Shown here: positions 3,897-39,357 of the stretch, piece by piece
Position numbering within the stretch: the stretch's first letter is position 1
Layout: every line of letters begins with the position of its first letter
Assembly: GCA_020426845.1 (NCBI GenBank)
Contig: JAGQPF010000411.1
Coordinates: 1 to 64,000, forward strand
DNA length: 64,000 nucleotides
Direction of reading: 5' to 3'
Source of the DNA: Planctomycetales bacterium
GTDB lineage: Bacteria > Planctomycetota > Planctomycetia > Pirellulales > Pirellulaceae
Translations under genes and position numbers: made by a program
The notes under the pieces: model-generated
Told to the model about the DNA's origin: nothing
The model's input: only the letters and a program-made list of their open reading frames with translations
The model's database searches: none

Positions 3897-4847
3897 ATGA
3901 CTGCGACTCGAGCTTCCCACTACCGCCGAGGATTCACGCTGGTGGAGCTGCTGGTGGTGATCGCCATTATCGGCGTCCTGATCGCCTTGCTGCTGCCGGC
4001 CGTGCAGGCCGCCCGCGAAGCGGCGCGGCGAATGAGCTGCTCCAACAACTTGGCGAACCTGATTTTGGCGGTCAACAACTACGAGCTGGCTCACGAGGTG
4101 TTTCCTTCCGGAACACTTGAGCCGACCGGACCGATTCAAAACGCCCCCAGGGGCTACCACCACAATTGGATCGAACAGTGCTTGCCCTATATGGAGGAGT
4201 CCACGACCTACGCGGCCATCGACTTCAGCAAGAGCGTCTATAGCCCGGCGAATCAACGCGTCATGGGCCTGAGCATTTCGATCCTTCAATGTCCTTCCAG
4301 CAGCAGCACCGGACACAGCTACGCCGCCTGCCATCATCACACCGAAGCTCCGATCGACATGACCAACACCGGCGTCTTCTATCTCAACAGCGCTGTGCAG
4401 CCAGCCGACATCCGCGACGGCCTGAGCCACACACTGTTCCTCAGCGAGGTCCAATCGCCGGCGCTAGGCTGGATGTCGGGAACCAATGCGACGCTGCGGA
4501 ACACGGGCACGGCGCCGAACAACACGCTCACGCCGGCGCTGCGAGCCACAGGGCCGAACGCCCTTCCCGCCGCGGCGCCGCTCACTCGGCGCGAAGCGCT
4601 GGAGGAAGTGCGGCGCGGCAAGCTGGCCCCCAGCGAAACGAGCGAGCCTGCCGCAGGTGGCGGCGCCAATTCCGCTGCTCCCGCCGCCGCGCTGCCGGTA
4701 GGAGGATTCAGCAGCTTTCATCCTGGCGGCGTGATGGCAGCGTTCGGCGACGGCCATGTGCAAATGATCTCCGAAAGCATCAGCATACAACCCTATCAGC
4801 AGATGGGGCATCGCGCCGATGGACTGCTGATCGAGGAGCGACGGTGA
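3897..4847 (+). CDS. DUF1559 domain-containing protein with prepilin-type N-terminus
   Basis: This 316-residue protein starts with the canonical signal [23 protein letters not shown], followed by [19 protein letters not shown], the hallmark of planctomycete DUF1559 (SBP_bac_10) proteins. A middle beta-rich region follows, with the C-terminal family motif F-x-S-x-H-P-G-G-V-x-x-A-F-x-D-G-H-V (about residues 275-292). Planctomycetes encode many such pilin-like, probably surface-located proteins of unknown function. An Ala/Pro/Gly-rich stretch (about 220-270) between the core and the C-terminal motif looks like a disordered insertion. It follows the pseudopilin genes in the same direction and may be a substrate of that machine (inference). 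Its stop overlaps the queE start by 4 bases. Confidence 0.92.
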
Positions 4848-5506
4848 GCTACTCGGTCAAGGAGATCTACTACACCCTGCAAGGCGAAGGAGCGCAGACG
4901 GGGCGCGCCGCTGTCTTCCTGCGATTCACCGGCTGCAACCTCTGGTCCGGCCTCGAGCGCGATCGAGCCGCGGCCATCTGCCAGTTTTGTGACACCGACT
5001 TCGTCGGCACGAACGGGCCGGCTGGCGGCAAGTACAACGCCACCGAGCTGGCCGATGTCGCGAAGAAAATTTGGAACAGCGGAGCGGGAGCGGAAACCGA
5101 CGCTGCGCCGGCGCAGCCGCTGGTCGTCTGCACAGGCGGCGAGCCGCTTTTGCAGCTGGACGAGGAAGCGATCGCGGCGCTGCACGACGCCGGATTCGAA
5201 GTTGCGATTGAGACCAACGGCACGCTCACGGTGCCGACCGGCGTTGATTGGGTCTGCGTCAGCCCCAAGGCCGGCGCCGAACTCATCGTGACTCGCGGTG
5301 ATGAATTGAAACTTGTGTACCCGCAAGCCGACCTGCCGCCGGCCAACTTCGAGGCGCTCGAATTCCAACACTTCTTTTTACAGCCGATGGACACGGCAGA
5401 CCCCGCCACGCGGCATGCCCATCTCCAGGCCACGATTCGGTTCTGCATGCGACATCCCCGCTGGCGTCTCAGCCTGCAGACGCACAAGCTGATCGGCATC
5501 GATTGA
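4844..5506 (+). CDS. queE: 7-carboxy-7-deazaguanine synthase QueE (radical SAM)
   Basis: This 220-residue protein would convert 6-carboxytetrahydropterin to 7-carboxy-7-deazaguanine in the queuosine/preQ0 pathway. It begins at a GTG overlapping the previous stop (GTGA): [20 protein letters not shown] is the typical QueE opening. The FeS-cluster cysteines appear as C-x14-C-x2-C (FTGCNLW...ICQFCDTDF), the longer-spaced variant seen in E. coli-type QueE rather than plain CxxxCxxC. TGGEPLLQ (SAM contact), ETNGT and VCVSPKAG follow, and the C-terminus [11 protein letters not shown] matches the family end. No other queuosine gene lies nearby; its neighbours are pilin-like genes. Length is normal. 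Confidence 0.95.
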
Positions 5507-5639
5507 GCGGGCACGACTGACAAAGTTCTGCCCCTCGCCACAACTTGGTTTATTGATTCCGCGCCTCGAACGCCGAATAATCGATCGGCAGGCGGGTGGA
5601 AGGCGGCACATCGATCCGGGAACAACGAGAAGGCAAAAC

Positions 5640-7199
5640 ATGACATCGGAATTCGACTATTGCATCGTGGGAGCTGGCCCTGCCGGATTGCAGCTCGGCT
5701 ACTTCCTCGAAAAAGCGGGCAAATCGTACGTGATCCTGGAGCGAGGCGAGGCGCCGGGGACGTTTTTCAAGCTGCATCCGCGTCACCGCAAACTCATCAG
5801 CATCAACAAGGTCTATACCGGACATTGTGATGCGGATATCAACTACCGCTGGGATTGGAATGCGCTGCTCTGCGACGACGAGCGATTTCTGTTTCGCAAT
5901 TACAGCCGCCGATACTTCCCCGCGGCCGACGATCTCGTTCGCTACCTAGGCGAATTCGCCGCCCACTACGGGTTGGACGTCCGCACCGGAGTCAACGTCG
6001 AGCACGTTCGCCGCGACGGGGAGCACTTTCTCGTGGTGGATGCCGATGGCAATCAAATCCGCAGTCGCTGCCTCGTTGTCGCCACCGGACTGGCGAAACC
6101 TTACATACCCGAGATCCCCGGCATCGAGTTGGTCGAGCAATACGAAGAAGTTTCCGTCGACCCCGACGATTTCACCGACCAGCGAGTCCTGATCATCGGG
6201 AAAGGGAATTCGGGGTTCGAGACCGCCGACAATCTGGTCGAAACCACCGCGCTGATTCATGTGGCGAGCCCGCGGCCGGTGAAGTTCGCTTGGCAGTCGC
6301 ATTTCGTCGGGCATCTTCGCGCAGCGAACAACAATCTTCTCGACACCTACCTCCTCAAGTGCCAAAACGCAACGCTGGAAGTTGAGATCGAGAAGATCGA
6401 ACGAGTCAACGAGCGGTTTCGAGTCACCGTCAGCTACCAGCGCGCCATGGGCAGCCGCGACGTGATTGAATACGATCGCATTATCTGCTGCACCGGCTTT
6501 CGCATGGATACCGACATCTTTGACGGCGACTGCCGGCCCAATACCGTGATCGACTCCCGCTTTCCGGAGCTGGACAGCTCGTGGCAATCGACCAATGTGC
6601 CGGGGCTGTATTTCGCGGGCGCGTTGACACAATCGAGGGACTTCAAGAAAACGGCCAGCGCGTTCATCCATGGCTTCCGCTACAACGTGCGAGCGCTCGC
6701 ATTCATCTTGCTGCAACGCTTCCACAACATGCCGCTGCCGCAGCGAGCGCTCGATTGCACCGCGGAGGCGCTAACGCATGCCATTATCGATCGCGTCAAT
6801 CGCAGCTCGGCGCTCTGGCAGCAATTCAGCTTTCTCTGCGACGTGATCGGCGTCTCGGCGGAAGGCGTCGAGCACTACGAGTCACTGCCGATCGACTATG
6901 TCCACGACGAGCTCGGCCAACGTTTCGACACGTACTTCACCATCAATCTCGAGTACGGGTTCAAACCCGAGGACGATCCGTTCCGCAGTCACCGCGTGGC
7001 TCATACGGATGTCGACGGAGCTCGCGACAGCACCTTCCTGCATCCCGTCGTGCGACGCTATCAAGGCGGCGAGCTGCAAGATGAGCATCACATCGTGGAG
7101 AATCTCGAGGCGAATTGGCGCGACGAGGCACTGCATGTCGCTCCGCTCCGCGCCTACCTCGATGACAAGCTGCCTCGCTGGATCGCTGAGCCGGCCTAG
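5640..7199 (+). CDS. FAD-dependent oxidoreductase resembling FOXRED2
   Basis: This 519-residue flavoprotein has an N-terminal FAD-binding Rossmann motif (YCIVGAGPAGLQLGYFLEKAG) and the stretch HPRHRKLISINKVYTG followed by NYRWDWNALL. From memory the latter closely resembles animal FOXRED2, an ER-lumen flavoprotein. A second dinucleotide motif (VLIIGKGNSGFETADNL, about residue 185) and CCTGFR (about 285) are typical of flavin monooxygenase-like enzymes, so NAD(P)H use is likely. The ATG at 5640 is preferred because GAGAAGG lies 6-8 bases upstream and the FAD motif starts within 15 residues; in-frame ATGs from 5553 on lack this support. No signal peptide is seen. Substrate unknown. It stands alone, with 133 bases from queE. 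Confidence 0.85.
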   Translation: MTSEFDYCIVGAGPAGLQLGYFLEKAGKSYVILERGEAPGTFFKLHPRHRKLISINKVYTGHCDADINYRWDWNALLCDDERFLFRNYSRRYFPAADDLVRYLGEFAAHYGLDVRTGVNVEHVRRDGEHFLVVDADGNQIRSRCLVVATGLAKPYIPEIPGIELVEQYEEVSVDPDDFTDQRVLIIGKGNSGFETADNLVETTALIHVASPRPVKFAWQSHFVGHLRAANNNLLDTYLLKCQNATLEVEIEKIERVNERFRVTVSYQRAMGSRDVIEYDRIICCTGFRMDTDIFDGDCRPNTVIDSRFPELDSSWQSTNVPGLYFAGALTQSRDFKKTASAFIHGFRYNVRALAFILLQRFHNMPLPQRALDCTAEALTHAIIDRVNRSSALWQQFSFLCDVIGVSAEGVEHYESLPIDYVHDELGQRFDTYFTINLEYGFKPEDDPFRSHRVAHTDVDGARDSTFLHPVVRRYQGGELQDEHHIVENLEANWRDEALHVAPLRAYLDDKLPRWIAEPA

Positions 7200-7222
7200 G
7201 AGGCGGCCCGGTTGAGCGGCGC

Positions 7223-7255
7223 GGATCCCTCGCTTACGCTTCGGGTTTCCTTGCG
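7223..7255. repeat. Single copy of the 55-base repeat core
   Basis: A core reading gatccctcgcttacgcttc followed by gggtttccttg lies between the flavoprotein gene and the convergent transferase gene. The same core occurs near 20240, 22200, 22255, 52167 and 52219, where it is arranged in 55-base tandem units at two sites. Confidence 0.75.
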
Positions 7256-8476
7256 TCACGCGGCGCGGCGGTTGCGTTTGCCGCGATCGAGGCGCCAGAC
7301 ATCGGGTGGCAGATCGGCGAGCTCCGGATCGCGAATGAGCTCTCGCGGGTTGCGGACCAATGTGCAGCCCGCGGGCAGCTCCTGCCCGCCGGCGACCTCG
7401 ATGTTCGGCCCGAGAAACACGTCGTCCCCAAACGCAACGCCAAGAATCTTCGCGCCCGAGCGGATCGTCTCGCCCTGATGCGAGACGGGCACGGTGCCGC
7501 GGAAGCTAAAGTCCAGCGCGCCGGAGTTCGGGCACAGAACCACCCGCTCGCCGGCAACGCTAAGCTGATTGAACGGCGTCGAGAGAGAGCACTCGGCGCC
7601 GAACACGCTCCCGCGCGCGACCACTCCGGGCGAAACCAGCGTGCGACGTCCGAGCGTGCAGCCGTCGAGCCGCGCGTTGGAGCCAATCACGCAATGGTCG
7701 TCGATCACGCAAAACCGCACGACGGCATGTGGCTCGATCTTCACACGCCGGCCGATCACGGCGCCCTCGACGACGGCGGTCGGGTGGATCCGCGCGCGAG
7801 GCCCCGCCCAGTAGGCCTTGCCGGCCATCTGCTGCGGGCGCACACTGCCGCTTCGCCAAGCGGCCAACAGCGGCAACATCATCGTGGCGCCCCAGCGGGC
7901 GCGAGCGGTGCGCAAGAAGACGGAAGACATGCCCAGCAGGTTGCAGGCGACCAGGTTGGCCCAGTGCTGCAACGGACTTAGGTAGACGTGTGAGAACGGC
8001 GTCACATGGCGGCCATTTTCCGCGAACTTGGGGTGCGCAGGCGCAGCGATCTTGCCAAACGGCGCCGCAATCGTCAGCGGCATGGTCCGCTCGATCTCGC
8101 AAGCCTCGCGCAAATAATACATCGAGTACAACCGCAGCGGTCCGTCGTCACTCTCGGCCAGCTCGCCCTGTAGCGCCGGCGCCACCGCCTCGGTCAGCAA
8201 TGAAACCGCCAGCGCCGCGCGGCGGTTGCCGGTTTGCCCACGCGCTGCTTTGAGAAATCGCCGCACGGCCGACGGCGTAAAATAGAGGTCGTCGTGCAAC
8301 AACAGACACGGAAACTGCGTCGCCTGATCCAAACGGTCGATGTGCTCGACGCGGCATCCGCACTGCCTCAACAGCTCGTCGCGCAGCGCGGGCCAAGGCC
8401 GATTGTGAATGCGAATTGCCTCGAGCGGTCCGAAGGGCGAAATCTCGCGGCCGGTCCGCAACACGTAGGTTTGCAT
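7256..8476 (-). CDS. Left-handed beta-helix (hexapeptide-repeat) transferase, GlmU-like architecture
   Basis: This 406-residue protein has an N-terminal alpha/beta region (about 1-190) with LLLHDDLYF near residue 60, reminiscent of a diverged nucleotidyltransferase. The C-terminal region (about 225-375) has repeated [LIV]-G-x-x-x-x units: RIHPTAVVEGAVIGRRVKIEPHA, VIDDHCVIGSNARLDGCTLG, VFLGPNIEVAGG. This is the signature of left-handed beta-helix acyl- or nucleotidyltransferases. The layout resembles sugar-nucleotide pyrophosphorylase/acetyltransferases, but no GlmU G-x-G-T-R-M loop is visible, so the N-terminal half may be non-catalytic or differently specialised. It is convergent with the flavoprotein gene and 37 bases downstream of the sulfotransferase gene on the same strand, which suggests a role in surface glycan or sulfated polymer synthesis (inference). 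Confidence 0.75.
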   Translation of the reverse strand: MQTYVLRTGREISPFGPLEAIRIHNRPWPALRDELLRQCGCRVEHIDRLDQATQFPCLLLHDDLYFTPSAVRRFLKAARGQTGNRRAALAVSLLTEAVAPALQGELAESDDGPLRLYSMYYLREACEIERTMPLTIAAPFGKIAAPAHPKFAENGRHVTPFSHVYLSPLQHWANLVACNLLGMSSVFLRTARARWGATMMLPLLAAWRSGSVRPQQMAGKAYWAGPRARIHPTAVVEGAVIGRRVKIEPHAVVRFCVIDDHCVIGSNARLDGCTLGRRTLVSPGVVARGSVFGAECSLSTPFNQLSVAGERVVLCPNSGALDFSFRGTVPVSHQGETIRSGAKILGVAFGDDVFLGPNIEVAGGQELPAGCTLVRNPRELIRDPELADLPPDVWRLDRGKRNRRAA

Positions 8477-8513
8477 CGTTGGCTCAATTCATTGCTTGTT
8501 CAAGGCCGGCGCG

Positions 8514-10511
8514 TCAGGCAGCTCGAGAGCGGGACGAGGCTGCGTCGTCCTCCGTCGACTCCAACGGCTCGTAGCCCCAGCGTGCCATCAACGGACCAAG
8601 CTTCTCGAGCACGATCGATCGCTGCTCGGGCGATAACGGCCGATGGCGGTTCTTGCGATAACCTTCCAAGGAGTCGAGGTACTGGCGCAGCCGTCGGTCG
8701 TACTCGTCGGTGTACTCCATGTTCAACTCGCGATAGATCGCCTGCACGACCTCGAGCGGGTTGGTCTCCAGATCCTCGAAACGCACTTCCGTGACCGACT
8801 GCGGCGGCATGCGCTTGGACGCCGCGACGAACGCGTCCTCCATGCCGAGATAGTTGTCCATGAAACGCGCGGCATAGGAGGTCTCGGGATCGGAATCCTG
8901 AATCTGGCACATCACATGCGCCTGCTCGCTCAAGTGCAGGTTGGACTGATAGACCACCTCGGGGTGCCGCCGAATGTGGACGAACTTCGCGCCGGGATAC
9001 ATCTCGGACAGGATCCCCATCCGGCTCGTGTTGTGCGGGTTCTTGGACAATAGCCGGCGGCCCGACCAATACGCGACCTTCTTCATGAAGAAGGCGTACG
9101 CCTTGCGCCACCGCTGCTGCTCCTCGTGCGACAACTGCTCCGGATAGATGTAGCGATCGTACTCGGGCCACTGCTTGGGAAACGTCATGCCCCAATAAAC
9201 CGACATTTCGCAACTGCTGGCCAGCGCGAACTCCTCTTCCTGCGGCGCGAACAGATGAAACCGCACGCCGTCCATCGGCCGCTTGCCAGGCAAGAAGATG
9301 CCCAACAGCGGCGTGGTCAGCCAGCCGGTGAACAAGCAGCCAACCGGGTTCAGAATGTGAAACGCGCGGGGTGTGCAGTATTGCGTGTCCAGCGACAACA
9401 GGTTGTGCAGCAACGTCGTGCCGCTGCGATGCGTGCCGAGAATGAATACGGGCGGCTTGACTTTGACATTTCTCATCAACAGCGGCACGAGCACGCGCTC
9501 GGGCAACGTGATGACGGTGTTAACGGCGGACATCACCAGCGCCGCGACAAGCCGCGGAATGTAGTCGGCGCCAACGCGGAAACGAGCCTGCCAAAGCCGT
9601 CCGAGCCAGATGTCCAACGGCGCCAGGGCCTGGCTGTTGGAAAGCGGAAAGACGCGTTTGAAGTCCGAGTCGATCGCGGGCCCGTCCAGCTCGATGCGCT
9701 TCTCGCCATGCTTGCGAAGCGACCACAAACTCCAGCCGATCGCGCCGATCAGCACGGTCCACAATACGGGCGACATTCGCGGGTCGCCGTTAGGAGCCAG
9801 CCAGGCCGCGGCCGCGCCGTCCTGAAACTCCAGCAAGCGGCCGTGGCGCACAAAGCGCCGGACAAACACCCAGCCCGCGAGCACACCGGTTGATGTCAGG
9901 ATGCTGCCCGTCTGCAGCCGCAGCAATCCCAACAGCGTCGCCACCAGGAATAAGCAGAAGACCATCTTCATCGTCTGCTCGTGGAAGAACAAATCGGGGT
10001 GGTTCAGCCGTCCCAACACGGCGAACAAACCCGCGCTGATGACCACCGCCACGCCCGCTCGGTACTTGTCGCGAAGCATCGTCAGCAAGTAGCCGGTGAA
10101 CAGAATCTGCTGAGTGGCGGCGAGCGGAAAGGCCGTCATGCCGTTGAACCAGGCTTTGGCGAGCCGGCTGCCGGACGGCATGCTGTCGCGGAATTCGAAG
10201 ACGCCCAGGCACCAGGCTGCCGCCAGCATCGCCAGATGGAGTCCCGCGCCGACCGCGGCGCCTCGCAGCAGCAACTTCTTCCAAACGGGACCGACGATAA
10301 AGCCGAATTCGCCAATTTCGCGCTGGTCGGCGGCGATCAAGGCAAACAACGAAGCCAGGGCCAGCGCCAGCACAATGCCGCTGTTTTCCAGCACATTGAA
10401 GTCGCTGAGGCCCACCATCCAGGCCGCCAACTGCAGGATGGAAGCGAACCCACAGGTCAGCCCCAGCCAGACGCCGAGTTTTGCCAACGGCGACAACGAC
10501 TTGATCCGCAT
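8514..10511 (-). CDS. Multi-pass membrane domain (CPBP-like, degenerate) fused to a sulfotransferase
   Basis: This 665-residue fusion has an N-terminal half (about 10-265) with six to eight hydrophobic segments. Its order resembles CPBP/Abi-type membrane proteins, but QQ (134-135) stands where catalytic EE is expected; NH (170-171) may match the His motif. The C-terminal half (about 350-640) is a sulfotransferase: LGTHRSGTTLLHN (359-370) is the 5'-phosphosulfate loop for PAPS and FVHIRRHPEVVYQSN the 3'-phosphate-binding strand-helix. It would transfer sulfate from PAPS to an unknown acceptor at the membrane. The ATG at 10511 is preferred because GGGAG lies 7 bases upstream and the first membrane helix starts within 12 residues; an upstream start at 10697 would add 62 unpromising residues. 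An acyltransferase-like gene follows 37 bases downstream. Confidence 0.82.
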   Translation of the reverse strand: MRIKSLSPLAKLGVWLGLTCGFASILQLAAWMVGLSDFNVLENSGIVLALALASLFALIAADQREIGEFGFIVGPVWKKLLLRGAAVGAGLHLAMLAAAWCLGVFEFRDSMPSGSRLAKAWFNGMTAFPLAATQQILFTGYLLTMLRDKYRAGVAVVISAGLFAVLGRLNHPDLFFHEQTMKMVFCLFLVATLLGLLRLQTGSILTSTGVLAGWVFVRRFVRHGRLLEFQDGAAAAWLAPNGDPRMSPVLWTVLIGAIGWSLWSLRKHGEKRIELDGPAIDSDFKRVFPLSNSQALAPLDIWLGRLWQARFRVGADYIPRLVAALVMSAVNTVITLPERVLVPLLMRNVKVKPPVFILGTHRSGTTLLHNLLSLDTQYCTPRAFHILNPVGCLFTGWLTTPLLGIFLPGKRPMDGVRFHLFAPQEEEFALASSCEMSVYWGMTFPKQWPEYDRYIYPEQLSHEEQQRWRKAYAFFMKKVAYWSGRRLLSKNPHNTSRMGILSEMYPGAKFVHIRRHPEVVYQSNLHLSEQAHVMCQIQDSDPETSYAARFMDNYLGMEDAFVAASKRMPPQSVTEVRFEDLETNPLEVVQAIYRELNMEYTDEYDRRLRQYLDSLEGYRKNRHRPLSPEQRSIVLEKLGPLMARWGYEPLESTEDDAASSRSRAA

Positions 10512-10690
10512 CCATCCACTCCCTTGTCTTCCGGACGACTCCGGCATCCTGCCAGTCCATGAAGGCGCCGTTTGCACGGAAACCGTGTGGGAGTGTATCG
10601 GTCCCCGCCGATCGCTGCCACCCCGATTGGCCTCCCCTACGAAGACGCGACCCCCCCGTTTGGTGCATGCGCTGCCGCGCTGATCGTTTC

Positions 10691-10884
10691 GTAGCATGGG
10701 CGCCCTCGCCCGTGCGCGGCGAGCAGCCGCAAAGCACCGCCCAGGCCCCTATGCAGGTGGCTCTCCTGGCGCAGTGCGGCTGCGCAGCTCTGCACGGGCG
10801 AGGGCGCCCATGCTACGCGAAACGTGCCTCGGCCGGCGCAGTGCGGCTGCGCAGTGCTGCACGGGCGAGGGCGCCCATGCTACG
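10691..10884. repeat. GC-rich inverted/direct repeat cluster in the 10512-10952 gap
   Basis: The motif gtagcatgggcgccctcgcc at 10691 recurs inverted at 10792-10816 and 10859-10883. The two inverted copies are parts of a 67-base direct repeat that also carries gcgcagtgcggctgcgcag. The palindromic character (gggcgccc core) and intergenic place resemble REP-type elements. The rest of the 441-base gap between the divergent sulfotransferase and cytochrome genes shows no gene; it must hold both promoters. Confidence 0.7.
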
Positions 10885-10952
10885 AATGTGGCTCCCCGGC
10901 GAGGCCGTGTTAGAATAAGGCGTTAACCCCTCGGTCCCGTTCGAGCATCACA

Positions 10953-12947
10953 ATGACAGAGCAGCAGCAACACTCGTTGAAGAAGCTGTTTGGCGTTTCC
11001 GCTGTCTTGGCAGTGGTGATTGTGGGGGTGGTCGTGATGCTCACCGGGCCCGGTGAATCCATAGCCCGAGCGCCACGACTGACTCAGCATGGTGGCGTCA
11101 TCGACTGGTGGGACGCGATTCCGCCGGAGCTCAAGCAGGCCTGCACGCCGGTGGGGCCGAACCTCGGCGTAGGGGCCACCAGCGAAGTCTCCACCGCCTC
11201 CGCCCAGTCCGCATTGGAGGGCGCCGAGGAAATCTCGGCCACCAGCAACATCTCGCTGGCCGATTACGCTGGACCGGATGCCTGCGCCAAATGTCACCCC
11301 AAACAACATGCTGGCTGGTCCAAGCATCCCCATCGTTGGATGAACTCGGAGGCGAACGAGTCGACGGTGCTCGGCGACTTTGGCAACCGCTCGCTGGAAT
11401 ACATGGGCGGGCAGGCGAGCTTCTTTCGCGAGGGCGATGGGTTTCGCATGAAGCTCGAGCGCGGCGAGGTCACACGAACTTATGCCATCACGCAGAACAT
11501 CGGCTCGCGTTTCTATCAGTATTATGTCGGGCTGTTGCTTTCCGGACCGGAGCCCGCGGGCGACCCCGCCTACACGATGGACCATGTGTTGCCGTTCGGC
11601 TACTGGCTGGATCGCGGCGAATGGGTGCCGACCGTGCACGTGCATTGGGCCGACCGTGACGGCAAGCGCGTGGACGAGGAAGACTTGCCCTCGGCAAAGC
11701 GACACGATCCGTTCGCGGCGCCGAACTCCAATTTCTCCTTCACGGCCTACTACCAGTGCAACGGCTGCCACACGACGTTTCCGCTCGGCGATCTGATGGT
11801 GAAGATCCCGGAAGTGATCGGCAAGCACGCGCCGTTGGCCATGCACTTTAACGCGCGCGAGTACATCGAGGCGGCGCACCCCGAGCTGCCGAAGCTGACT
11901 GAGCCGGCGATCGACGCCGACGGCAATCCGGTGCCGGGCAGCGACAATCTGGACTCCATCCGGCAGCAGATCCGCGAGTGGGATGCGCGGGACCACGCCG
12001 CGGCGTTGGGAGTGACTTGCGAGTCGTGCCACCTGGGCTCGAAGGAGCATGCCGAAGGCAAGCTGAAGCGGCCCCAGTTCTTCCCGCACAGCGAGCATCT
12101 GTTTGCCTACAGCGACGCTCCGCTGGAGGAAGTGGATGGCGGCCGCACGCACCGCAACCTCAGTTGGGCATGCGGTCGTTGTCACGCGGGCGGCCGGCGT
12201 CTGCTCGCGGGAGGCATGGCCACCTGGAATTCGACCGAATTCACCGACGCGATGCGTGGCAGCTGTTACTCACAAATGACCTGTGTCGATTGTCACAATC
12301 CCCATGAGGCAACCGGCAGCCAGTGGACGCGCACGGCCGCGGAGGACGACCAGTCCTGTCTCCGCTGCCACGAGAAGTTCCAAGCCCCCGAGGCGCTCGA
12401 GGCGCACACGCATCACGCGCCCACCAGCGCCGGCTCGCACTGCATGGACTGCCATATGCCGCGAATCAACGAGGGCCTGCAGGACATGGTCCGCACGCAT
12501 ATGATCTTCTCGCCCACACAGCCGCAGATGCTCGAGGCGAATCATCCCAACGCTTGCAACCAGTGCCACGTCGATCAATCGATCGACTGGACGCTCGACA
12601 AGCTCAAGCAGTGGTATGGGCGGGAGTATGATGAGGCGAAGATCGCCAAGGCCTATCCCGATCGCTCGCAATCGGCGGCGGTTGGCTGGACGCACAGCAA
12701 AGATCAATCCGTGCGGCTGATTGGCATCGACTCGCTCTCGCGAGCGGCCACGGCGAAAGAGTCGCTGGCGCATCTGATCGACGGACTCGACGACCCCTAT
12801 ATCATCAACCGGCAGTTCACTCGGGTCCGCATCGAGAAGCTGCTGGGGATCAAGCTCGAGACACTCGGTTATCGCTATTACATGACCGAGGACGAGCGCC
12901 GCGAGCCGCTCAAGGACGTTCGCGCCAAGTTGCTCGAAGGACCGTGA
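10953..12947 (+). CDS. Membrane-anchored octaheme cytochrome c
   Basis: This 664-residue protein has an uncleaved-looking N-terminal membrane anchor (about residues 12-30) followed by a periplasmic region with eight CxxCH haem-binding motifs at C111, C269, C356, C407, C444, C469, C497 and C535. The C-terminal 110 residues lack haem motifs; repeated helices (SVRLIGIDSLSRAA, SLAHLIDGLDDPYI) hint at HEAT-like repeats, as in some cytochrome c/TPR-HEAT proteins. The first motif sits in DACAKCHPKQHAGW, typical of multihaem c554-like domains. It probably carries electrons in periplasmic respiration; the partner is unknown. It stands alone with a large upstream repeat-containing gap. The CXXCK or extra His features of nitrite reductase or HAO are not seen, so a specific enzyme is not assigned. 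Confidence 0.88.
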   Translation: MTEQQQHSLKKLFGVSAVLAVVIVGVVVMLTGPGESIARAPRLTQHGGVIDWWDAIPPELKQACTPVGPNLGVGATSEVSTASAQSALEGAEEISATSNISLADYAGPDACAKCHPKQHAGWSKHPHRWMNSEANESTVLGDFGNRSLEYMGGQASFFREGDGFRMKLERGEVTRTYAITQNIGSRFYQYYVGLLLSGPEPAGDPAYTMDHVLPFGYWLDRGEWVPTVHVHWADRDGKRVDEEDLPSAKRHDPFAAPNSNFSFTAYYQCNGCHTTFPLGDLMVKIPEVIGKHAPLAMHFNAREYIEAAHPELPKLTEPAIDADGNPVPGSDNLDSIRQQIREWDARDHAAALGVTCESCHLGSKEHAEGKLKRPQFFPHSEHLFAYSDAPLEEVDGGRTHRNLSWACGRCHAGGRRLLAGGMATWNSTEFTDAMRGSCYSQMTCVDCHNPHEATGSQWTRTAAEDDQSCLRCHEKFQAPEALEAHTHHAPTSAGSHCMDCHMPRINEGLQDMVRTHMIFSPTQPQMLEANHPNACNQCHVDQSIDWTLDKLKQWYGREYDEAKIAKAYPDRSQSAAVGWTHSKDQSVRLIGIDSLSRAATAKESLAHLIDGLDDPYIINRQFTRVRIEKLLGIKLETLGYRYYMTEDERREPLKDVRAKLLEGP

Positions 12948-29801: not shown

Positions 29802-29879
29802 GTTCGCTGCATCTCCTGAATTTCAAAACAGTTGGATCAAATATGCTACCCGCCGCTTCGGCTCGGAACAACGGCGGGG

Positions 29880-30025
29880 CCAGACTTGTCGTGCTGCGGG
29901 CTGCCAGACTTGTCGTGCCGCGGGTCGTAGTGCGGGCTGCCAGACTTGTGTTGTAGGCTGCCAGACTTGTCGTGGTGCAGGCTGCCAGACTTGTCGTGGT
30001 GCAGGCTGCCAGCCTGCAACCTGCG
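29880..30025. repeat. Degenerate tandem array of 'ctgccagacttgtcgtg' units
   Basis: ccagacttgt-type units start at 29880, 29904, 29940, 29961 and 29985, with a final variant at 30009; spacing is 24 bases with two exceptions (36 and 21). Each unit contains gcaggctgccag, the arm of the palindromic elements at 28241, 39469 and 63453, so the array looks like local expansion of one arm. Confidence 0.8.
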
Positions 30026-34860: not shown

Positions 34861-34915
34861 CAGTTCGATCAGCTCGGAATTTCGTTAAACTCACCGGTGC
34901 GGAGCGCTCCCTTTT

Positions 34916-35022
34916 CCTTCCCTCTTCGCTCCCTCTTCGCTCCCTCGTCGCTCCCTCTTCGCTCCCTCTTCGCTTCCTCGTCGCTCCCTCTTCGCTTCCT
35001 CGTCGCTCCCTCTTCGCTTCCT
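34916..35022. repeat. 11-base tandem repeat (about nine to ten copies)
   Basis: Units tcgct[ct]cctc[tg]t follow each other at exactly 11-base steps, with only C/T and T/G variation. One strand is pyrimidine-only apart from the G. The array lies in the 301-base gap between the zinc-ribbon gene and the divergent ketosynthase gene, close to both start regions. Confidence 0.9.
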
Positions 35023-35161: not shown

Positions 35162-36139
35162 ATGGGGATCCGAATCGTCGATGCGGAACATGGGGCGCCG
35201 CAACGTGTCGAAACGGCCGCGGAGATCGCGGTTCGAATCGGACGCGACGAGCAGTGGATCATTGAACGCACCGGCGTCGCATTTCGCCATGTGGCCGAAC
35301 CGGACTGCCACCCCGCCGAGCTTGCCGCCGAGGTAGCGGGACGGCTGTTGCAACGACAGCCCGGCGCCGCTTCACAGGTTGACTGGCTGCTGCACGCCTC
35401 GGCAACTCGCTGGCAATCCATTCCCGATACGTCCGTCTTCGTGCAGCGCGCACTGGAACTCCACGGTGTGCCGTCGCTGAGCGTGCAGGCGACCTGCCTC
35501 TCCTTTCTCCCGGCGCTGCAATTGGCCGAAGGGCTGTTGGCCGCCGGTCGCGCGAGCCGAGTGCTGATCACCACGGCCGAACTGCCCTGCCGCGTGCGCG
35601 ACTTTGCCCAACCGGAGTCGGCGGCGCTGCTGGGCGACGGCGCCGCTGCCGTGTTGCTGGAATGGACGCCAAACGATCCGGGCGGAATCGTGCACTACGC
35701 CATGGAGACGTGGTCGGACGGAGCAGAGTTTGCGGAGATTCGCGGCGGCGGACACAGGTGTCTGCCCGGCCTGCCGGAGACATCGCTACAAGACAGCCTG
35801 TTTCATATGGATGGCGAGCGACTGTTGCGGGCCGGCGTGCCGAGAATGAGAAAGTTCATGAATCGTTTCTGGAAAGCCAGCGATCTGTCTCCCGACGACA
35901 TCGATCTCGTCGTGCCACATCAACCCTCGGCCGCCAGCCTCAAGGTGTTGTCTCGACTCGGTTTCTCCTCCGAGCAAGTCGTCGACATCCTCTCCAAGTA
36001 CGGCAATTGTGTCGCCGCCTCCATGCCGATGGCTCTCTCCATCGCCCATCGAGACGGCCGACTGCAGCGCGGGGATCGCGTGCTGTTGCTCGGAACTGCG
36101 GCAGGAATCTCCCTGGGCGCCATGGTGCTGACATGGTGA
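35162..36139 (+). CDS. 3-oxoacyl-ACP synthase III-like ketosynthase (FabH/OleA type)
   Basis: This 325-residue thiolase-fold enzyme has the complete Cys-His-Asn triad: C112 (QATCLSF), H253 (VPHQPS) and N282 (YGNCVAASMP). The substrate-loop WIIERTGV at residues 32-39 is a FabH/OleA hallmark. It would condense acyl thioesters, either as an initiation ketosynthase or as a head-to-head condensing enzyme like OleA. Several features are trimmed: the chain is slightly shorter than FabH and the usual RR residues of FabH's CoA site are not obvious. The next genes encode an epimerase/MBL fusion and an ATP-grasp enzyme, so a dedicated lipid or small-molecule pathway is more likely than housekeeping fatty-acid synthesis (inference). 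Confidence 0.85.
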   Translation: MGIRIVDAEHGAPQRVETAAEIAVRIGRDEQWIIERTGVAFRHVAEPDCHPAELAAEVAGRLLQRQPGAASQVDWLLHASATRWQSIPDTSVFVQRALELHGVPSLSVQATCLSFLPALQLAEGLLAAGRASRVLITTAELPCRVRDFAQPESAALLGDGAAAVLLEWTPNDPGGIVHYAMETWSDGAEFAEIRGGGHRCLPGLPETSLQDSLFHMDGERLLRAGVPRMRKFMNRFWKASDLSPDDIDLVVPHQPSAASLKVLSRLGFSSEQVVDILSKYGNCVAASMPMALSIAHRDGRLQRGDRVLLLGTAAGISLGAMVLTW

Positions 36140-36146
36140 TGTCATC

Positions 36147-38153
36147 ATGATGGAGCGGCAGGCGCCCGAGTTGATTCAGGCCATTCGCGCCGAGCTGCCG
36201 GCGCCGCGGCGGATTCTTGTCACTGGCGCCAGCGGATTTGTCGGCGCTCGATTGGCCAATGCGCTCGCGGCCGCGGGGCACGCTGTCACCGGAGCTGGCC
36301 GCAACCCGTATCGTGTCGCCCGCGACTCGCGCGTGGAGTTTCGCGTCGTCGATTTCCGCAATTCCGCTGCCGTTGACCAGCTTGTCGACGGCCACGAGCT
36401 GGTCGTCCATGCAGCCGCGGACTGCTCCCCTTGGAAGCGCGCCGAGGAACTGCGTGAAATCAACGTGGGCGCCGTCGAGAACCTGCTTGAGGCATGTCGG
36501 CGCCATGCAATCGGGAGGATGGTGCACGTTTCCTCGACCGCTATTTTCTTCTCGCATCAAGACCGCTTCGGCGTCGAGGACGATGCCCCGCTGGCGCCGC
36601 GCTTCACGTGCGGCTACGCCGCGACCAAAGCCGAGGCCGAACAGACGGTCGTGGCCACAGCCGACAAACAAGACGTCTTCATCGTCCGTGCGCGGGCCGT
36701 CTACGGGCCGGGAGACAACGGTCTGCTGCCCCGGATCGCAGACGCGATGGAACGCGGCCGGCTGCGAGTCATCGGCGACGGCAAGAACGTCATCGACCTC
36801 ACCTACGTCGACAACCTGCTCTACGGGCTTGTCTTGGCGCTGACTCGCGGACCTAGCGGCGGCGTCTGCACGATCACCAACCACGAGCCCGTGCCGCTCT
36901 GGCCCACGATTCATCAGCTGCTCGAGTCGTTGGGAATGCTGGGCGGCGAGGGCCAACCCAACCAGCTGCGCAAGGCGCCGCGGTGGCTCGCGATGGCCGT
37001 CGCGGGCGCGCTCGAATGGCGCCACCGCTTGCTGCGTTTGCCGGGCGAGCCGGCCGTGACGCGATACGGCCTGGGACTGCTCTCGCGGAGCCAGACCTTC
37101 CGTCCAACCGCCGCTCGCGAGCTGCTTGGATACGAGCCGCTGGTCGACATGACCTCGGGCCTGCGCCGCACCGTGGACGATTGGCGGGCCAAGGTCGACG
37201 GGGATGGCGGCGCCGAGCAGCGAATTCACCTACGCGTCTTCAGCACGGGGTTCACCACGGCGCGGCCCTGGCAAATCGAGTCCTCGCGCCGAGCTCGCCG
37301 AGCTCGATCAGACTCCTCGCCTGAAGCTACTGCCATCGCCTCTGGCACTGCCAACAACGGCAAGCTGCGGATGCACGCCGCCATCTACCTGCTCCGCCAC
37401 CCGCGGCACGGCTTGATCTTGTTTGACACTGGATACGCGCCGCGCTTCTTCGACGCGACTCGCCGATTTCCGTATCGGCTGCAACGCTGGATGACGCCGG
37501 TGAGCACGAGCGAACGCGTCTCCGCCTCCGGCATGCTCCAGGCCCACGGCGTGGACCCTCAAGATGTGCGAACCATCGTGATCTCTCATTTCCATGGCGA
37601 CCATGTGGCAGGATTGGCCGACTTTCCGAAAGCCGAGGTGATCGCCACCACAGCGGCCTGGCGGACGACTTGCTATCGCGGCTGGAGCGCCATGCGGCGA
37701 TTCGTGCTGCCGGACCTGATTCCCGCGCGGCTGTCCGAACGCCTGCACACGTTGGATGCGTTTCACGATCCCGGCTGGGGTCCGTTCCCTGCGAGCCGCG
37801 ATCTGTTCGGCGACGGGTCGCTGCGGCTGCTGCCCTTGCCCGGCCACGCGGAAGGCCAGATCGGAGCGCTGGTGCAAACAGACCGAGGCGCCGTGTTGCT
37901 GGCAGCCGACGCTGCGTGGACGATAGGCACAGTGCGAGCAGCGTTGCCGTTCACTTTCCCCTTCCGACTCGCTGCTGCCTCGCGACGCGATGCCGACCGA
38001 ACTATGGAACGTTTGCACGAAGTCGCCGTCACCAAGCCCGATGTCGCCATCTTGCTGACGCACTGCCCATCGGCGGCCCGCGAGTTTGGACTCAATGGCC
38101 AACTGGCACGAGTCGATGCGGAACAGTTCGGCGCCGGAATCTCGGGGAGTTAA
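36147..38153 (+). CDS. NAD-dependent epimerase/dehydrogenase fused to a metallo-beta-lactamase-fold hydrolase
   Basis: This 668-residue protein has two enzymes in one chain. Residues 22-345 form an extended SDR/3-beta-HSD-like dehydrogenase: TGASGFVG (26-33), S129/S130 and Y157-x3-K161 as catalytic residues, plus ARAVYGPGD. This resembles OleD, which reduces 2-alkyl-3-keto acids. Residues 360-660 are an MBL-fold hydrolase: ILFDTGY (425-430), HFHGDH (481-486, HxHxDH zinc site), PGHAEG (565-570), D588 and H639, like N-acyl-homoserine lactonase-type enzymes. An Arg/Ser-rich insertion (about 375-405) interrupts the start of the MBL domain. It starts 7 bases after the ketosynthase stop; the ATP-grasp gene follows 4 bases after its stop. 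No frame break is visible. Confidence 0.85.
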   Translation: MMERQAPELIQAIRAELPAPRRILVTGASGFVGARLANALAAAGHAVTGAGRNPYRVARDSRVEFRVVDFRNSAAVDQLVDGHELVVHAAADCSPWKRAEELREINVGAVENLLEACRRHAIGRMVHVSSTAIFFSHQDRFGVEDDAPLAPRFTCGYAATKAEAEQTVVATADKQDVFIVRARAVYGPGDNGLLPRIADAMERGRLRVIGDGKNVIDLTYVDNLLYGLVLALTRGPSGGVCTITNHEPVPLWPTIHQLLESLGMLGGEGQPNQLRKAPRWLAMAVAGALEWRHRLLRLPGEPAVTRYGLGLLSRSQTFRPTAARELLGYEPLVDMTSGLRRTVDDWRAKVDGDGGAEQRIHLRVFSTGFTTARPWQIESSRRARRARSDSSPEATAIASGTANNGKLRMHAAIYLLRHPRHGLILFDTGYAPRFFDATRRFPYRLQRWMTPVSTSERVSASGMLQAHGVDPQDVRTIVISHFHGDHVAGLADFPKAEVIATTAAWRTTCYRGWSAMRRFVLPDLIPARLSERLHTLDAFHDPGWGPFPASRDLFGDGSLRLLPLPGHAEGQIGALVQTDRGAVLLAADAAWTIGTVRAALPFTFPFRLAAASRRDADRTMERLHEVAVTKPDVAILLTHCPSAAREFGLNGQLARVDAEQFGAGISGS

Positions 38154-38157
38154 TGCC

Positions 38158-39357
38158 GTGCGCGTGCTAGTTACCGGAATGCGAGCGCCCGTGGCGCTCG
38201 ACTGGGCGCGACGGCTGCGAGATGCCGGCCATTCCGTCGTCGGCGCCGACTGCCTGGCGTGGCCGCTTGGTCGCTTTAGCAACGCGTTGGAAGCCTACAT
38301 TCGATTGCCGAGCCCCGCCGCCACCCCTCGGCCGTTCGCGATCGCGCTGGCCGATCTGATCCAAGACCGGCAGATTGACGTGGTCATGCCGACGTGCGAG
38401 GAGGTCTTCTACCTGGCAACCTGCAAGCAGTCGCTGCCCTGCGCCGTTTTGGCCGATTCGCTCACGCAACTGGAGGACTTTCACAGCAAATGGCGGCTGT
38501 CCCAATGGTCGGGTCAGACGCCGCCAACCCATCTCTTGCGCGAGCCCGAAGACCTGCAGCCGTTGCTCGAAAATTCGGTGGATTGGGTTTTCAAACCCGT
38601 CTACAGCCGCTTCGCAACCGAAACGTTGATCGGTCCGTCGCGCTGGCGGGTCGAACAACTCAGCGTCACGCACCAACGACCTTGGGTCGCTCAACGACGT
38701 GTCGTCGGCGACGAGTTCTGCACCTTTAGCCTTGTGGAACAAGGACAAATCACGGCGCATGCGGCCTATGAATCGACCTATCGTGCGGGCCGAGGCGCCG
38801 GCATCTACTTCAACCCAATCCGCTGCCCCGAGGCAACTCGCGTGGTCGCCGAACTGGCAAAGCGACGTGCGTTCACCGGACAACTTGGCTGCGACTTCAT
38901 TCGCGAGCACAGCACAGGGCGCCTCTGGTTGCTGGAGGCGAATCCTCGCGCCACCAGCGGCTTGCATCTGCTGCCTCACGTAAACGGAGTCGTGGATGCC
39001 GCGCTGTCAGCGGCCGTGGCTGCGTCGCGTGACAACGCGAACACCACCGACGCAACACTCAAGCCGCTCGAACCGCCGCTGGAGCCGATCGACGACACAC
39101 CCTGGACGGTAGGACCGGCGATGCCGTTTTGGGGGCTCATCAGCGCCGCCCAACAGCAGCGATTGCGGCAGTTTCTCGCCGACTGGCGAAAAAGTCGAGA
39201 TGTCATTGGTCGCCGCAACGATCTAAGGCCACTGCTCGCGCTGCCGCTTGCCTTTGCCGAGCTGACGGGACTCAGTTGGCGCAAGGGCGTGTCGCCCGCG
39301 GTCGCTTCCACAATTGACATCCAGTGGGACGGAGAGCCGATGGAGTTGCTGGACTGA
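38158..39357 (+). CDS. ATP-grasp domain protein
   Basis: This 399-residue protein begins at GTG 38158 (VRVLVTGMRAPVALDWARRLRDAGH), with the pre-ATP-grasp Rossmann-like domain directly at the N-terminus. The ATP-grasp core includes FKPVYSR (ATP lysine, about 147), WVAQRRVVGDEFCTFSLV and the metal-binding end RLWLLEANPRATSGLHLL (E-x-N-P-R, about 258). Such enzymes join a carboxylate to an amine, thiol or other nucleophile via acyl-phosphate. Only 4 bases separate it from the fusion gene, so all three genes at 35162-39357 form one unit. An in-frame ATG at 38086 exists, but it would overlap the fusion gene by 68 bases, so the GTG is preferred. Confidence 0.8.
   Translation: MRVLVTGMRAPVALDWARRLRDAGHSVVGADCLAWPLGRFSNALEAYIRLPSPAATPRPFAIALADLIQDRQIDVVMPTCEEVFYLATCKQSLPCAVLADSLTQLEDFHSKWRLSQWSGQTPPTHLLREPEDLQPLLENSVDWVFKPVYSRFATETLIGPSRWRVEQLSVTHQRPWVAQRRVVGDEFCTFSLVEQGQITAHAAYESTYRAGRGAGIYFNPIRCPEATRVVAELAKRRAFTGQLGCDFIREHSTGRLWLLEANPRATSGLHLLPHVNGVVDAALSAAVAASRDNANTTDATLKPLEPPLEPIDDTPWTVGPAMPFWGLISAAQQQRLRQFLADWRKSRDVIGRRNDLRPLLALPLAFAELTGLSWRKGVSPAVASTIDIQWDGEPMELLD

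Follow-up and report, generated by a model that had tools for sequence, protein, structure and literature searches.

Genes of the locus

What do three closely packed planctomycete genes, encoding a ketosynthase, a fusion of two enzymes, and a ligase, make together, and do they form a variant of the Ole pathway, as an earlier note on this DNA had proposed? The genes lie in the window, the stretch of 64,000 nucleotides that was analyzed, on a contig of 76 kb whose end does not cut the trio. The first gene (35162..36139, plus strand; ATG start at 35162 and stop at 36139) encodes a KAS III-type ketosynthase (KS) of 325 amino acids that is MxnB/CorB/PRK07204-like. The second (36147..38153, plus strand) encodes a fusion protein of 668 amino acids, joining an OleD-like extended SDR to an AHL-lactonase-like MBL hydrolase. 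The third (38158..39357, plus strand; GTG start at 38158 and stop at 39357) encodes an ATP-grasp ligase of 399 amino acids that is similar to NCBIfam PRK06849. The coordinates confirm the spacing described earlier, with 7 bases between the KS and fusion genes and 4 bases between the fusion and ATP-grasp genes; all three are codirectional, their reading frames are open, and their catalytic residues are intact. The gene starting at about 39615, downstream of the trio, is by eye presumably arginyl-tRNA synthetase-like. An 11-bp tandem repeat of about 10.7 copies (CGCTCCCTCTT) is located at 34905 to 35022, directly upstream of the KS gene, and a 24-bp tandem repeat array at 29879 to 30012 adjoins an SDR gene. 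A role in antiphage defense was dropped because the locus has no PADLOC match.

Pfam and NCBIfam searches confirmed the KS, SDR, and MBL families, while the ATP-grasp protein matched strongly only the NCBIfam model PRK06849 (NF005315), at full length with 314.6 bits, which is below the cut-off of 406; the planctomycete cluster member L056 likewise falls below this cut-off (336.9 bits). The active-site features listed in the earlier note are all present. The KS keeps its catalytic triad (Cys112, His253, and Asn282), and these positions are conserved in 72, 71, and 71 of 72 relatives, respectively. In the fusion protein, the SDR domain (residues ~20 to 350) has the motifs TGASGFVG and Y157-x3-K161, and the MBL domain (residues ~400 to 645) has the HxHxDH~H~D~H metal site of AHL lactonases, composed of HFHGDH (residues 481 to 486), His567, Asp588, and His639. 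Among relatives, the SDR Tyr and Lys are conserved in 69/69 sequences and the seven MBL metal ligands in 74/74. The SDR scores 196.1 bits on the OleD model NF042422 (cut-off, 580), and the MBL domain scores 84 bits on the AttM lactonase model (cut-off, 390). The ATP-grasp protein has Lys146 and the motif E260-A-N-P-R264, with K146, E260, N262, P263, and R264 being invariant in 42 sequences.

A gene cluster shared by distant bacteria

The trio is a member of a gene cluster with a core of KS, OleD-like SDR, MBL, and ATP-grasp that is found across at least eight bacterial phyla, namely, Planctomycetota, Chloroflexota, Pseudomonadota, Bacillota, Verrucomicrobiota, Cyanobacteriota, Acidobacteriota, and Bdellovibrionota. 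A FemX/LPG-synthase-like GNAT is the usual additional gene, and a Rieske oxygenase and an AMP-forming ligase are often present. A four-row alignment of ATP-grasp sequences was scanned against 84,980 species genomes, and the best 80 of the 438 relatives were retained. The linkage census covered 60 loci that had been fetched via the ATP-grasp gene alone and whose flanks measured no less than 5.5 kb on the upstream and 3 kb on the downstream side; KS and MBL genes were found in 54 of them and an SDR gene in 53, and as the loci were retrieved in this way, the counts show the companions of the ATP-grasp gene and not the frequency of the other genes without it. The linkage of the four genes is far above chance, and they constitute a coinherited enzymatic unit. 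Among loci with enough flanking sequence, KS, SDR, MBL, F390 ligase, and Rieske genes are present in 21/22 Pseudomonas loci, with a GNAT gene in 22/22; KS, SDR, MBL, GNAT, and F390 ligase genes are present in 10/11 loci of other Pseudomonadota; and all 11 Chloroflexota loci have KS, MBL, and GNAT genes, 8 of them together with an OleC-like ligase (PRK09274). In addition, genes for KS, SDR, MBL, an F390-synthetase-related/CoF ligase, ATP-grasp, and GNAT are found on annotated plasmids from Paraburkholderia, Shinella, Paenibacillus, and Rhizobium, two of which have an annotated Rieske protein as well.

Most full clusters outside Planctomycetota thus contain ATP-grasp and AMP ligase genes together, with the AMP ligase being F390-synthetase-related in Pseudomonadota, Bacillota, and Cyanobacteriota and OleC-like in Chloroflexota; neither an F390 nor an OleC-like ligase was found adjoining the planctomycete copies. 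In the Chloroflexota locus L129 (positions 3931 to 11143), as in other loci of this phylum, genes for the OleC-like ligase (608.9 bits on PRK09274; cut-off, 478), OleD-like SDR, MBL, GNAT, KS, and ATP-grasp lie together, and this variant is a candidate beta-lactone-type pathway. ATP-grasp and GNAT genes alone occur at some loci (Deinococcus, Rhodothermaceae, and genome G130), and two Verrucomicrobiota loci (L073 and L080) have divergent KS, SDR, and MBL genes beside Pseudomonas-like ATP-grasp, GNAT, and Rieske genes, an arrangement that suggests module exchange. The cluster therefore looks modular.

The cluster was not described in the literature searched, the coverage of which is thin for subscription journals, so that "undescribed" is provisional; within this limit, the earlier view of an undescribed pathway is upheld, and the linkage marks a genuine coinherited enzymatic unit. 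Its novelty would provisionally consist of an uncharacterized combination of familiar enzyme classes.

Reduced planctomycete form

The window contains a reduced, SDR-MBL-fused planctomycete version of this widespread cluster. Its KS, SDR, MBL, and ATP-grasp are homologous to those of the Pseudomonas, Paraburkholderia, Rhizobium, Shinella, and Paenibacillus clusters and are linked in the same way, but the SDR and MBL are fused, and an adjoining F390-related ligase, GNAT, and Rieske protein are missing. The four core activities are linked and codirectional, without the adjacent FemX-like GNAT. Searches in which the positive controls worked found neither a GNAT nor an F390 ligase in the window, even as a remnant, or in the rest of the genome, and a search of the window found no Rieske oxygenase. 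The earlier note had proposed looking for the trio in other planctomycetes, and the fused form does recur there, at eight loci (L052, L053, L054, L055, L056, L063, L105, and L131); it was not seen in the other phyla sampled. In the uncultured Pirellula locus L055, on a contig of only 5.2 kb, the trio is directly followed by an unrelated reverse-strand gene, with no GNAT directly after the ATP-grasp gene, so that the short form is a recurring one. In genome G064, on the other hand, the KS, GNAT-like, ATP-grasp, SDR, and MBL genes adjoin but are separate.

Phylogenetic analyses placed the window KS in a clade with seven planctomycete KSs (support, 99/97; IQ-TREE, 48 sequences) and the window ATP-grasp protein among planctomycetes (support, 100/97), which argues against contamination (bin estimate, 6.5%). 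Both window branches are long (0.71 for KS and 1.13 for ATP-grasp). The branch lengths count in favor of the idea that the three genes are what decay or scavenging has left of a larger cluster, once acquired, whose original product is no longer made. The lack of a GNAT and an F390 ligase in the genome points in the same direction, as does a patchy occurrence, since a strong full-length ATP-grasp match was found in only 1 of 60 relative genomes (G025) and 2 of 392 genomes of the phylum (G064 and G130). However, the three open frames with their catalytic residues, the tight gene spacing, and the recurrence of the short form in L055 speak against decay, and we regard the remnant explanation as doubtful, although it is the most probable of the alternatives.

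Ketosynthase

By sequence, the KS is of the MxnB/CorB type, these being its closest characterized relatives. In the PDB, it matches MxnB (4v2p; E value, 5.9e-56) and CorB (4yuc; 3.7e-51) best, with OleA (3fk5; 3.6e-11) far behind, and it scores 99.7 bits on the OleA model PRK09258 (cut-off, 285). The KS tree separates the cluster KSs from FabH and OleA and groups them with MxnB and CorB (support, 96/92), with the branching order inside this group being partly unsettled. In OleA, Glu117 followed by Pro is taken as characteristic, and Glu117 is the general base (PMC7064751). The alignment places Ile87, followed by Pro, at this position in the window KS and Val in MxnB and CorB, and a hydrophobic residue (I, M, L, or V) is found in all 72 cluster KSs. 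MxnB and CorB also share with the window KS the Cys-His-Asn triad and the CLSF motif around the active Cys. The "OleA-like" assignment of the earlier note was accordingly given up. MxnB joins two beta-ketoacyl chains in vitro, being about 12 times faster with carrier-bound substrates, and MxnB and CorB work within large PKS assembly lines (PMC5724707); the window KS, in contrast, stands beside SDR, MBL, and ATP-grasp, with no PKS seen adjoining.

ATP-grasp ligase and GNAT

A sequence search found no PDB relatives of the ATP-grasp protein. Among PDB structures, its AlphaFold2 model (pLDDT, 94.3) most resembles those of PylC, a CPS-like protein, and RizA, which is an L-amino acid ligase. The predicted ATP-grasp fold and ligase architecture are common to the window protein, PylC, and the L-amino acid ligases RizA and BL00235, but identities are only about 15%, with TM-scores of about 0.5. 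This likeness suggests a carboxylate-amine ligation by the modeled protein, with the fold being common to many ATP-grasp enzymes. The model of the GNAT from relatives (pLDDT, 89.4) matches lysyl-PG synthases, aminoacyl-tRNA-dependent transferases, and FemX, with TM-scores near 0.4.

Proposed pathway and alternatives

The enzymes could act in a scheme of condensation, keto reduction, hydrolysis, and amide ligation, to which we assign a probability of roughly 45%. With an acyl group on Cys112 and no Glu base of the OleA type, the MxnB/CorB-type KS would condense a pair of acyl or beta-ketoacyl thioesters, and the beta-keto group so formed would be reduced by the OleD-like SDR, which would draw on NAD(P)H. 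A thioester or lactone would then be hydrolyzed to the free acid by the zinc-dependent MBL domain of the fusion, after which the ATP-grasp enzyme would activate the carboxylate as an acyl phosphate and couple it with an amine or amino acid to yield a product resembling an acyl amide. The enzyme classes have good support, and the genes, their catalytic residues, their linkage and phylogeny, and the missing GNAT and F390 ligase are observed; the substrates, step order, and product are inferred from family knowledge and linkage. The scheme is supported by the PDB matches of the KS and its tree position, the in vitro condensation by MxnB, the OleD- and AttM-type matches, the predicted ATP-grasp fold, the linkage in relatives, the congruent planctomycete placement in both trees, and the planctomycete-limited fusion. 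Against it stand the facts that no enzyme of the cluster has been characterized and that the SDR, MBL, and ATP-grasp proteins all score below the curated cut-offs of their families. It also counts against the scheme that FabH-type KSs can extend with malonyl as well and that no carrier protein was recognized near the trio, when MxnB is faster with a carrier. The GNAT of nearly all full relatives is missing in the window, so the product may differ there or the unit may be incomplete.

A more specific statement is more tentative still: the cluster could be an uncharacterized, patchy, and probably horizontally spread pathway of at least eight phyla, in which a two-chain KS of the MxnB type, acting without a PKS, and an amide ligase of the ATP-grasp class make a condensed lipid that is an acyl amide or is linked to an amino acid and that possibly serves as a signal, with the planctomycete version streamlined by SDR-MBL fusion. 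If true, the pathway is a compact one, conserved in Pseudomonas and rhizobia as well as in Chloroflexota, Paenibacillus, and Planctomycetota, and the planctomycete trio is possibly its minimal core. Cultured Pseudomonas and Rhizobium strains have the full set, which opens the search for the product to organisms that are easy to work with.

The KS, SDR, MBL, and ATP-grasp might instead produce or modulate a signaling lactone or pyrone of the photopyrone or pseudopyronine kind, which the MBL would open or degrade. MxnB and CorB make alpha-pyrones, and the MBL is AHL-lactonase-like; however, the photopyrone synthase PpyS needs an OleA-type Glu where MxnB and CorB have Val (PMC4578411), this Glu is absent from the window KS, and simple pyrone formation has no role for an SDR or ATP-grasp enzyme, which makes a pyrone signal unlikely.

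A modified Ole pathway, with ATP-grasp in place of OleC and MBL in place of OleB and with a beta-lactone, olefin-related compound, or hydroxy-acid lipid as the product, is more improbable still. Like OleABCD, the trio combines a KAS III-type condensing enzyme with an SDR that matches OleD models, and the relatives in Chloroflexota have in addition an OleC-like ligase that passes its cut-off, so that their variant may include a beta-lactone branch. The trio KS, however, lacks Glu117-Pro and falls outside OleA in the tree, the trio has no OleB-type alpha/beta hydrolase, and the ATP-grasp, MBL, and GNAT of the cluster have no counterpart in the Ole pathway. The substitution of ATP-grasp for OleC loses its ground because relatives carry ATP-grasp and AMP ligases, OleC-like in Chloroflexota, side by side. 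An Ole pathway was rejected on the Ile at the Glu117 position, the KS tree, and this linkage with AMP ligases. Of the Ole-like pathway first proposed, there remain the coinherited unit, the OleD-type SDR, and the recurring trio, and an OleA-type KS and an OleC substitute do not. If the proposed scheme is right, a KS and OleD-like SDR pair alone is no sign of olefin or beta-lactone biosynthesis.

The idea that the KS is an ordinary FabH or FabH paralogue with unrelated metabolic neighbors is already contradicted (a KS grouping with housekeeping FabH was among the refuting outcomes named in the earlier note), because despite a KAS III fold and 185 to 209 bits on FabH models the KS is below both cut-offs (TIGR00747, 185.0 versus 292.1; PRK09352, 209.3 versus 249) and in a separate clade, a housekeeping FabH lies at G000:C116 (PRK09352, 403.7 bits; cut-off, 249), and the linkage with SDR, MBL, and ATP-grasp is conserved.

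Ole homologues elsewhere in the genome

The earlier note had held that a complete ole cluster elsewhere in the genome would undo its reading. Homologues do occur, all (like the FabH) on contigs other than that of the trio: an OleA-family KS with the Glu present at G000:C164 (PRK09258, 429.8 bits; cut-off, 285), an OleC-like ligase at G000:C113 (PRK09274, 692.1 bits; cut-off, 478), and, at C92, the top-scoring OleD match, which with 376.8 bits stays under the cut-off of 580. This comes close to such a cluster, but the homologues are unlinked, and no complete ole operon was found in the genome searches, which covered OleA, OleC, and OleD; Ole chemistry, if present, thus has its own genes, which also speaks against a modified Ole pathway in the trio. 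C113 was considered as a complete ole cluster, having both KS and OleC matches, and was rejected, as its KS belongs to a fusion with E1-beta and its OleC homologue lies beside a DUF3419-like gene. The OleC-like ligase there (L144:7716-10774; PRK09274, above the cut-off) adjoins a 400-amino-acid protein, with no other ole genes, and we take this neighbor to resemble the DUF3419/BtaA type. On the same contig (L144:17252-19999), a dehydrogenase E1-beta-like part and a C-terminal KAS III domain are encoded in one open frame.
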